Shown one piece after another: positions 31,433 to 48,552 of a stretch of DNA of 64,000 nucleotides. Every line of letters starts with the position of its first letter. The first letter of the stretch is position 1. Both the position numbers and the translations under genes were made by a program. Origin of the DNA: a virus; the IMG/VR virus record IMGVR_UViG_3300006916_000042, positions 1 to 64,000 of that record; one strand, given 5' to 3'. The notes beneath the pieces were generated by a model. It worked only from the letters and a program-made list of their open reading frames with translations. It was not told where the DNA came from and made no database searches.

Positions 31433-32305
31433 ATGCTCCCTTTCAAAAAATGGAATTCTCTACAAGAGGCCCGTGCCTCTGATGATGTTCTATATCATGC
31501 TACCAGTGAGTATGTTGTAATCCAGATACTAAAATCGAATTCGTTCAAGCTAGTTCCAGACATTGCAGTTGGTGCAGATGCTGGGCTTGGTAATAGCTCC
31601 AAACGTAAAATCTGGTATCTAAGCACAACACGTCATAAGCTTGGGGGTTACCACAAAGATAATACATGGGGGGTCATGCTGAATCTTGATGGCAACAGAA
31701 TATCACATAACAACAAGATTGTGGCTGTTGATTATTGGGGGGCCAGTTTTGCAGCCGTGGACAGGTCAAAAATGGAAGCAGAAGATAGAGTGCTTTCAGC
31801 CAAACCAGAATTAAAACCGGCAACAAAATTCATCAGGTCTATACATGTCTTGCCTAAATCGAACTGGGTTTCTGATGATCATGAGAAGCAGAGACTCCGT
31901 GACATTATGATGTTAGCAAAGAAAAAAGGTATTCCTCTTTTTCATTATGACGACAGAGAAAATTGGTTGGTACAAAAAAATCCAATTAAGTTGGATATGA
32001 ACGATTTGAAAAAGCAAGATAAATCGATTAATACCTCTACTAGACTTGGAAGAAAAGATAAGGGTATTGGTGGCTTGATGGAATTGTTAGTTGCACCTAA
32101 GACCACTAAGAACTTTTCTGACTATGCTAAAAAATGGTTGGATAGAATGAAATATTATGCACATGATTACGAGACTCAGATGTCTGCCGATTTTCATAAT
32201 GCAAAAACGTCTGATGAACTGAAAAGACTCATTCAGGTAATGCACAAAAAGAAGCTGTATTCCCAAAAAGACCTACAAGATTATCTGAAAAAAAAGTGGA
32301 CGTAA
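31433..32305 (+). CDS. ADP-ribosyltransferase-like protein with head-targeting-like N-terminus
   Basis: 290 residues. The N-terminus MLPFKKWNSLQEA ends in L-Q-E-A, like the capsid-targeting peptides of T4 internal proteins that gp21 protease cuts after (L/I)xE. The following domain has VLYHATS (His near 22), IWYLSTTRHKLGGYH and AEDRVLSAKPEL, an arrangement of His, Ser/Thr and Glu that fits an ADP-ribosyltransferase (H-Y/S-E) fold. T4 Alt is a packaged ADP-ribosyltransferase. The C-terminal 90 residues are lysine-rich and helical. ART assignment is inferred, not proven. Confidence 0.5.
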   Translation: MLPFKKWNSLQEARASDDVLYHATSEYVVIQILKSNSFKLVPDIAVGADAGLGNSSKRKIWYLSTTRHKLGGYHKDNTWGVMLNLDGNRISHNNKIVAVDYWGASFAAVDRSKMEAEDRVLSAKPELKPATKFIRSIHVLPKSNWVSDDHEKQRLRDIMMLAKKKGIPLFHYDDRENWLVQKNPIKLDMNDLKKQDKSINTSTRLGRKDKGIGGLMELLVAPKTTKNFSDYAKKWLDRMKYYAHDYETQMSADFHNAKTSDELKRLIQVMHKKKLYSQKDLQDYLKKKWT

Positions 32306-47306: not shown

Positions 47307-47310
47307 TGCC

Positions 47311-47335
47311 CTAAATATATAAAACGTATATATTT
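47311..47335 (+). promoter_or_regulatory. Late promoter CTAAATA with leader hairpin
   Basis: CTAAATA at 47311-47317, overlapping a perfect 9-bp hairpin AAATATATA/TATATATTT (47313-47335, loop AAACG). It lies 15 bases before the ribosome site of the RelA/SpoT-like gene. A similar promoter plus hairpin precedes the 60832 gene. Confidence 0.5.
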
Positions 47336-47349
47336 CAGGGTAATTGAAA

Positions 47350-48123
47350 ATGCTACACAGTTTCAAGACATATAATTTCCTCAGAAAACTTGAAGAGGCC
47401 GTTGAATCTCCAGCATTAAAGAGTTTGAAGGGTAGTAAAGACCCATCAAAACTGGAAAAAGCATACAATGATATGATTCCGTTCTTCAAAAAGATTGAAG
47501 GTTTGCTGAAAAAGGCAATCAAAGGGTCTGTCCCAAAAAGAAAACTTGGCAACATAAGAGTGTATACCAACATCAAGCCATTGGAATCATTCAAAGATAA
47601 AGTTCTGAACCGTGGTAAAAATCCTGCTGAGATTGGTGATTTGGTCCGTGGTGCCGTGCTGTTTGATGATCAATCTGATGCTGAAGAGTTTGTTAAACGT
47701 CTGACCCGTCGAGAAGGTTCGAAGGTGGTTGAAGTTGACAGGAAAACAAAAGCCGGTAAGGACCCTGTGTATGGTTATTATGGTGGAATACATATAGACA
47801 TGCAGTTTGATGGTCTCACAACAGAGCTTCAGGTCATGACCAAACGTCTGTGGAAATTCAAGGCCGTGGCTCATAAAATTTACACAGCTACTCGTAGTAA
47901 TAAGGGTGGTCCTGATGTTTCAACTCAAATGCAATCACAAAACGTATTCAAACATGGCAACAAGCCAAGCTATAAAGGTGGCCATAGAAGCAGACAGTAT
48001 GAAGGGTATATTGTCGAAGATAACAGCCTGACTGACGGTTGTGTCATCGTAGAGGGTATTTCGTTTGCCATAGAAGAGCTTGAAGATTTTGGAAACTGGA
48101 AAGAGGTTGATATATTTGCTTAA
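47350..48123 (+). CDS. RelA/SpoT-like protein with head-targeting-like N-terminus
   Basis: 257 residues from ATG 47350 (AGGGTAA upstream). The N-terminus MLHSFKTYNFLRKLEEA contains L-E-E-A at 14-17, a T4 gp21-type cleavage site. The body has IGDLVRGAVLF, YYGGIHIDMQFDGLTTELQVMT and WKFKAVAHKIYTATR, matching the D-x-x-G/R, GYxxxH and E-x-Q-x-x-T elements of RelA/SpoT nucleotidyltransferase domains. May synthesise (p)ppGpp-like alarmones or transfer pyrophosphate to tRNA, or be an inactive relative. Confidence 0.65.
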   Translation: MLHSFKTYNFLRKLEEAVESPALKSLKGSKDPSKLEKAYNDMIPFFKKIEGLLKKAIKGSVPKRKLGNIRVYTNIKPLESFKDKVLNRGKNPAEIGDLVRGAVLFDDQSDAEEFVKRLTRREGSKVVEVDRKTKAGKDPVYGYYGGIHIDMQFDGLTTELQVMTKRLWKFKAVAHKIYTATRSNKGGPDVSTQMQSQNVFKHGNKPSYKGGHRSRQYEGYIVEDNSLTDGCVIVEGISFAIEELEDFGNWKEVDIFA

Positions 48124-48162
48124 AATACCATATTGTCATTGACAGAGGTTTGTTAGTATGCT

Positions 48163-48552
48163 ATGAAATATGTAGAGATGAGAAAAGAGTTTGACATAGA
48201 AGGTGTTGGTTTTGAGGTTAATATCTCAAACACTGGAGATGTAAATTTCCATCCAATCTCTGGTATGACGGAGAAGGGAAGCTTGCCTTTCCATTTCCTG
48301 TTTGAGGATGATCCAATCTTCTCAGACATAAATCTGTTCAGGAATCCAATAAAGATATTTCTCAAGGTTGGTGATATCATTCTGGATTGGGTTAAGATCA
48401 ACAAGCCATATACCTTTGCCTTCAACAGTTCAACGAATAGGAAGAATAAGGTTTACGGTTATTTTGCTAAGAAGCTGGGGAAGAAGCTGCCAAACTACAA
48501 CATGGTAGAGCATCCAGTCGGTACGTTCAGGTTTTACAGGATAAATGACTGA
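48163..48552 (+). CDS. Uncharacterised protein
   Basis: 129 residues, beta-rich with GDIILDWVKINKPYTFAF and a basic C-terminus (RKNKVYGYFAKKLGKKL). TTGACA at 48138 may be a promoter but its -10 would overlap the start. Function unknown. Confidence 0.55.
   Translation: MKYVEMRKEFDIEGVGFEVNISNTGDVNFHPISGMTEKGSLPFHFLFEDDPIFSDINLFRNPIKIFLKVGDIILDWVKINKPYTFAFNSSTNRKNKVYGYFAKKLGKKLPNYNMVEHPVGTFRFYRIND

Follow-up and report, generated by a model that had tools for sequence, protein, structure and literature searches.

A late, leader-tagged RelA/SpoT-type enzyme of T4-like phages and its conserved neighbor as a candidate effector-antidote module

The internal proteins IPI to IPIII of phage T4 and the injected enzyme Alt carry a capsid-targeting leader, are processed by the prohead protease, and enter the host by injection. 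To our knowledge, the T4 internal proteins include no RelA/SpoT enzyme, and none has been described with a conserved partner under an early-type promoter. The capsid-targeting sequence is a conserved portion of the internal proteins of T-even phages (PMC3012670). According to the parts of the sources that were available, export of alarmone-type toxins is known or proposed through type III, VI, and VII secretion, contractile injection systems, and MuF capsid proteins (PMC12691689, PMC12226406); the MuF-Apk2 polymorphic toxins of temperate phages are (p)ppApp synthetases with the immunity proteins IapK and Aph1 (PMC12226406); and RelA/SpoT domains have been proposed to be virion delivered in phage polyvalent proteins (PMC5512222). 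Neither T4-type leader delivery nor the partner family described below was found in the accessible parts of these three papers, and among the further search hits that were read, no title or abstract bears on the presence of the phage phiM12 RelA/SpoT protein in virions. As far as we found, delivered RelA/SpoT effectors as such are already known, and the T4 internal-protein route for such an enzyme is apparently undescribed.

The locus lies in a window of 64,000 bases (bases 1 to 64000 of a 161,858-base virus record) from a T4-like phage. The record encodes a T4-type sheath, tube, portal, prohead protease, scaffold, and major head protein, the protease (phrog_207, E = 3e-79) and scaffold (phrog_237, E = 6e-77) being features of the packaged-head-protein route identified here by PHROG match. 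The nearest annotated relatives of its major head protein are in the Methylophilales phages Melnitz (68.5% identity). The 257-amino-acid protein encoded from an ATG start at 47350 to 48123 on the plus strand is a well-supported member of the RelA/SpoT nucleotidyltransferase superfamily, as a first-pass annotation had proposed, and the evidence comes from profile, fold, and individual residues. The window protein itself matches Pfam RelA_SpoT (PF04607) below the cut-off (E = 0.001; 19.8 bits versus a cut-off of 27) and PHROG 37685, of unknown function, at E = 7e-42; a PDB search with the single window sequence gave no match. Two relatives, L018 (33.1 bits) and L023 (42.8 bits), exceed the Pfam cut-off, and the family profile retrieved small alarmone synthetases from the PDB first (3l9d, E = 1.8e-6; 2be3; 6fgk), followed by Rel enzymes. 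The AlphaFold2 model has a core at residues ~31 to 205, with block pLDDT mostly >80, and residues 1 to 21 are unstructured and of low confidence. Structure comparison, one of the checks that the annotation had recommended, matched this model in Foldseek to SAS1, SAS2, CapRel, an exported SAS, and Tas1 in the PDB (E values of ~1e-5 to 1e-4; probability 1.00). The window protein shares its fold with these enzymes at 12 to 20% identity over the structural alignment, and it differs from them in that they have no head leader.

The GYxxxH-like and ExQxxT-like elements that the annotation had named proved to be conserved family motifs. In an alignment of 11 sequences, with members 27 to 41% identical to the window protein, K76, K84, R88, D97, K132, Y143, G145, H148, E159, Q161, K171, Y178, and R182 are invariant, and D97, Y143, H148, E159, and Q161 line up with 3l9d and 6fgk in the profile alignment. 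Asp97 (codon at 47638 to 47640, plus strand) is the predicted Mg2+/catalytic Asp of Syn2. The Syn3 motif, G142-YYGGI-H148 (47773 to 47793, plus strand), contains the predicted acceptor-stacking Tyr143 and His148, with G142 conserved in at least 90% of sequences, and in profile alignments it exceeds the GYxSxH of RelA and SAS by one residue. The Syn4 motif, E159-LQVM-T164 (47824 to 47841, plus strand), reads ELQVMT in place of EIQIRT and carries the predicted catalytic Glu, with T164 conserved in at least 90%. Both catalytic acidic residues, Asp97 and Glu159, are thus among the positions kept in all 11 sequences. On sequence alone, the acceptor of the predicted pyrophosphokinase may be GTP/GDP, ATP/ADP, or tRNA.

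The likeness to MuF-Apk2, as far as the available part of that paper describes it, is that a phage RelA/SpoT-type domain is tied to the virion head with a candidate immunity gene adjacent, here read from the sequence. The two differ in that Apk2 is fused to a MuF capsid protein in temperate phages, whereas the window enzyme would use a short, cleavable-type leader in a T4-like phage; in that the enzyme family keeps His148 where Apk2 has Asn, so that the Apk2 Syn3 signature GxN (PMC12226406) is absent; and in that neither fold nor family searches give any sign that the partner here is an HD hydrolase. A Pfam search at E ≤ 1 gave only RelA_SpoT and a weak CHASE8 match and no MuF domain in the window protein. 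The window enzyme falls outside MuF-Apk2, since it has neither a MuF domain nor GxN. The polyvalent proteins share with the present locus the idea of a virion-delivered alarmone synthetase, but in the accessible part of PMC5512222 they are large and multidomain or MuF fused, unlike the leader-tagged enzyme here.

Relatives in phage records include the "RelA/SpoT family protein" of Sinorhizobium phages phiN3, phiM12, and phiM19 (PHROG 37685), with an orthologous core of 43 to 45% identity, and proteins of Desulfovibrio phage SRB7757 and Variovorax phage V45v66; additional relatives, L018 and L023 among them, come from IMG/VR. The Sinorhizobium phage proteins also share the leader-like N terminus and the downstream partner family, but their annotation extends only to the RelA/SpoT family, with leader, late hairpin, and partner left unannotated. 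A search of genome contigs found no bacterial relatives of the enzyme family, and recent transfer from a host gene was set aside on that account. Frameshifts interrupt the enzyme gene in phage phiM7 (L003:2765-3516) and in L024 (L024:3887-4641), and the partner is intact in both; it looks as though the enzyme is dispensable or the frameshifts are sequencing errors. For leader and late-motif counts, 16 relatives with a readable N terminus were compared with 469 other open reading frames (ORFs) as controls. Seven loci from a later search took no part in setting the patterns; two of them (L041 and L042) are closely related, and the features of all seven were counted from printed sequences.

The enzyme begins with MLHSFKTYNFLRKLEE^A, a putative capsid-targeting leader (47350 to 47397, plus strand) with a predicted prohead-protease site, L-E-E^A. 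It resembles the cleavable capsid-targeting leader of the T4 internal proteins, of which II and III start MKTYQEFIAE^A (read from NC_000866), and late expression, here based on a motif, is a further likeness to IPI to IPIII. What the first-pass annotation had called a head-targeting-like peptide is one of seven leader-like N termini in the genome, versus 0.2 expected from internal 20-mers; the six other ORFs begin at 31433, 44382, 65729, 66157, 104511, and 105422. A first leader pattern, which required Phe, was set after some sequences had been seen, and misses T4's own internal proteins, was found in 11 of 16 relatives versus 16 of 469 control ORFs (P = 6e-12). The window protein fits a second pattern, modeled on T4 IPI to IPIII with an [LI]xE cleavage site, which has 10 matches among the 16 family members versus 13/469 in controls (P = 4e-11) and none among 15 partner proteins. 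The control rate is an upper bound, since several control matches are themselves likely packaged proteins. Strict leader matches were present in three of the seven later-search loci. The leader is degenerate (5 to 6 of the 16 relatives fall outside the patterns), and the rule for capsid targeting in T4 is a short one. A single leader precedes a fusion of the enzyme with a ParB-like domain in L018 and L023, and the homologue of that domain in the window phage genome (G000:65729-66157; E = 3e-18) has a leader of its own.

The textbook T4 late promoter is TATAAATA. A late promoter of the -10 type, CTAAATA, lies at 47311 to 47317 on the plus strand, 39 nt upstream of the enzyme start codon. Genome-wide, this motif has 32 plus-strand and 3 minus-strand copies, and copies stand ahead of the genes for the sheath, tube, scaffold, and major head protein. 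The form [TAC][ATC]TAAATA, picked after some sequences had been viewed, is found upstream of 12 of 16 relatives versus 34 of 469 controls, and the late motif is present in four of the seven later-search loci. These counts point to late transcription of the enzyme gene. The promoter overlaps the 5' arm of an inverted repeat (47309 to 47340, plus strand) that is predicted to form an RNA hairpin of 13 bp with one bulge and a 5-nt loop, and the Shine-Dalgarno (SD) sequence AGGG (47337 to 47340, plus strand) lies within the 3' arm, where it would be paired in read-through transcripts. The annotation had reported a late promoter with a leader hairpin upstream of the gene, and folding of the 63-nt upstream region bears this out (minimum free energy [MFE] of -13.6; z = -2.7 versus dinucleotide shuffles). 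The predicted probability that the SD sequence is unpaired is ≤0.017 in read-through RNA versus 0.23 to 0.68 in RNA from an assumed +1 at ~47323, and of the 15 late-promoter genes compared in the genome, the enzyme gene has the least accessible SD (0.004, rising to 0.462 upon release). Significant upstream hairpins were also predicted by folding in L001, L022, and L025. The same hairpin arrangement blocks early synthesis of T4 e, soc, 49, and I-TevI, and T4 lysozyme made early could cause premature lysis (PMC3014915); the enzyme gene resembles these in the predicted masking of its SD in read-through RNA. At the scaffold gene late promoter (G000:141598-141631), the SD is likewise predicted to be inaccessible on read-through transcripts and open on late ones (0.012 to 0.506). 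Taken with the leaders that recur in divergent relatives, the late promoter and the SD-hiding hairpin suggest that the enzyme is packaged in the phage head, a possibility that the annotation had raised.

Next to the enzyme lies a conserved partner gene with an early-type promoter, which the annotation had overlooked. It spans 48178 to 48552 on the plus strand (124 amino acids, ATG 48178) or 48163 to 48552 (129 amino acids, ATG 48163), and its product is phrog_24699-like and distantly related to DUF6934; two family members match DUF6934 (best, 8e-8), and no paper mentioning that domain was found. The gene that follows the enzyme gene in phiN3 is a homologue of the partner (E = 7e-9), and by profile the family lies directly downstream of the enzyme on the same strand in L001, L003, L004, L015, L016, L018, L024, L025, L027, L028, and L029. 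It is upstream of the enzyme in L021, adjacent on the opposite strand in L017 and L023, and 1.2 kb away in L005; L026 has no partner by profile, and L022 ends too soon to tell. The partner thus adjoins the enzyme in nearly all relatives with enough flank, changes of strand or side included. It is adjacent in four of the seven later-search loci and absent from the adjacent position in L050 and L052, and the L038 contig ends at the gene.

A sigma70-type promoter precedes the partner (48139 to 48167, plus strand), with TTGACA at 48139 to 48144, a 17-nt spacer, and TATGAA at 48162. Of 15 partner genes, 11 have the -35 element TTGAC[AG] upstream, versus 42 of 329 other ORFs (P = 4e-7); all 16 enzyme genes lack it. 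TTGACA stands ahead of three of the four adjacent partners in the later-search loci. In the window, the late transcript would also allow the partner to be read, and transcription from the partner's own promoter would leave almost no 5' leader before ATG 48178. The AlphaFold2 model of the partner (pLDDT 82.9) gave no significant match to solved structures, only weak GNAT-like scores, so that neither an acetyltransferase nor an HD-hydrolase reading is claimed. Profile comparison gave no sign of kinship between partner and enzyme, tblastn of partners against plasmids gave a chance match only, and a search of phages with one divergent partner found nothing. The partner is a candidate immunity or antidote protein of the enzyme, and the two genes together are a candidate effector-antidote module rather than a lone injected enzyme.

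With moderate confidence, we read the locus as a two-gene module of a T4-like phage that couples a late-made, packaged, and injected RelA/SpoT-type enzyme to an early-made antidote partner. The first gene would encode a pyrophosphokinase of the small-alarmone-synthetase type with a short N-terminal capsid-targeting leader, synthesized late only, from the late promoter, with the hairpin masking the ribosome site on earlier read-through RNA. The leader would draw the enzyme into the prohead core, where the prohead protease would trim it after L-E-E, and the enzyme would be injected along with the DNA. Late, hairpin-guarded synthesis and a head leader would together keep the enzyme from the producing cell until heads form and then carry it to the next host. 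There it may move pyrophosphate from ATP to the 3'-OH of a nucleotide or tRNA, which would slow host growth or translation; the MuF-Apk2 toxins offer an analogy that makes it plausible for host growth to be shut down as soon as infection begins. The second gene would give a small leaderless protein from its own sigma70-type promoter, an early-type promoter implying that the partner is present soon after DNA entry. The partner would turn the injected enzyme off, leaving a brief pulse, and would shield the producing cell once the enzyme is made again. A broader version is conceivable but doubtful: T4-like phages would use the internal-protein route to deliver a RelA/SpoT-type pyrophosphokinase in a timed pulse, active as soon as infection starts and then ended by an antidote from an early promoter of the entering genome, and proteins of the partner-domain family would serve head-delivered enzymes in general, Alt among them, as antidotes.

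The partner could have another role. An unlikely alternative is that the enzyme is a packaged effector and the partner a packaging chaperone or co-injected cofactor. Genes of the partner domain adjoin the gene of Alt, the packaged and injected ADP-ribosyltransferase family, in the KVP40-like Vibrio phages VH7D, QD01, and VS1. This link to a packaged enzyme also speaks for the effector-antidote reading, but we know of no antidote that Alt needs, which counts in favor of a cofactor. The partner-domain proteins of KVP40 themselves have leader-like N termini, which would suit a packaged cofactor rather than an antidote. The partners of the present family, however, lack a leader (0/15) and usually have an early-type promoter, features more in keeping with an antidote than with a factor for late assembly. 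In QD01 (L033:2426-4984), the partner-domain gene is convergent with the Alt ADP-ribosyltransferase gene, as it is in VH7D (L031) and VS1 (L034).

It is also possible, with a rather low probability, that the enzyme is not packaged and tunes the nucleotide or tRNA pool of the infected cell late, before lysis, the N-terminal peptide being no packaging signal. The late promoter alone would fit this and the leader is degenerate, but divergent relatives carry the leader pattern ~20 times as often as controls do, and it is also found on fusions with another leader-tagged domain. A toxin-like enzyme beside a small protein likewise recalls a phage toxin-antitoxin pair of type II, or one for competitor exclusion, that would work within the infected cell and involve no injection, and toxSAS enzymes are known toxin-antitoxin toxins (PMC11559606). 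The two genes have separate late-type and early-type promoters and sometimes lie on opposite strands, unlike the usual toxin-antitoxin operon, and the leaders would be left unexplained, which makes such a pair improbable. That the gene is a degenerate, inactive RelA/SpoT relic is highly improbable: the Pfam score is below the cut-off and the gene is broken in phiM7 and L024, but the window frame is intact and the catalytic and binding residues are invariant across the divergent alignment.

If the effector-antidote reading is true, the T4-type capsid leader would be another export route for alarmone-type enzymes, one that lytic phages exploit as infection begins, and phages taking over a cell could act directly on its nucleotide or tRNA state. 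The paired early gene would make the timing testable. The reading also offers function hypotheses for PHROGs 37685 and 24699, which are of unknown function and present in cultured phages.

Other leader-tagged loci were seen in the genome and in relatives. Leader-like N termini occur near the partner gene in SRB7757 (L004:5971-7044), where the protein has a DnaJ-like segment, and in V45v66 (L005:3649-4677, minus strand). At 31433 to 32305 of the window, a 290-amino-acid ORF starts MLPFKKWNSLQEARASDDVLYHATSE, a leader-like N terminus followed, by eye, by an ADP-ribosyltransferase-like "YHATS" start; it has no convincing Pfam or PHROG match and is a candidate second packaged effector. The ParB-like domain protein (L008:1729-2154 on its contig) is encoded downstream of a 705-amino-acid ORF and is followed consecutively by a leader-tagged 508-amino-acid protein without assigned function (G000:66157-67683; L008:2157-3680); both products are likely internal head proteins. 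Among late genes, a leader-tagged SprT-like metalloprotease (G000:104511-105425; L010:511-1422; Pfam E = 5e-8) is a candidate packaged protease.
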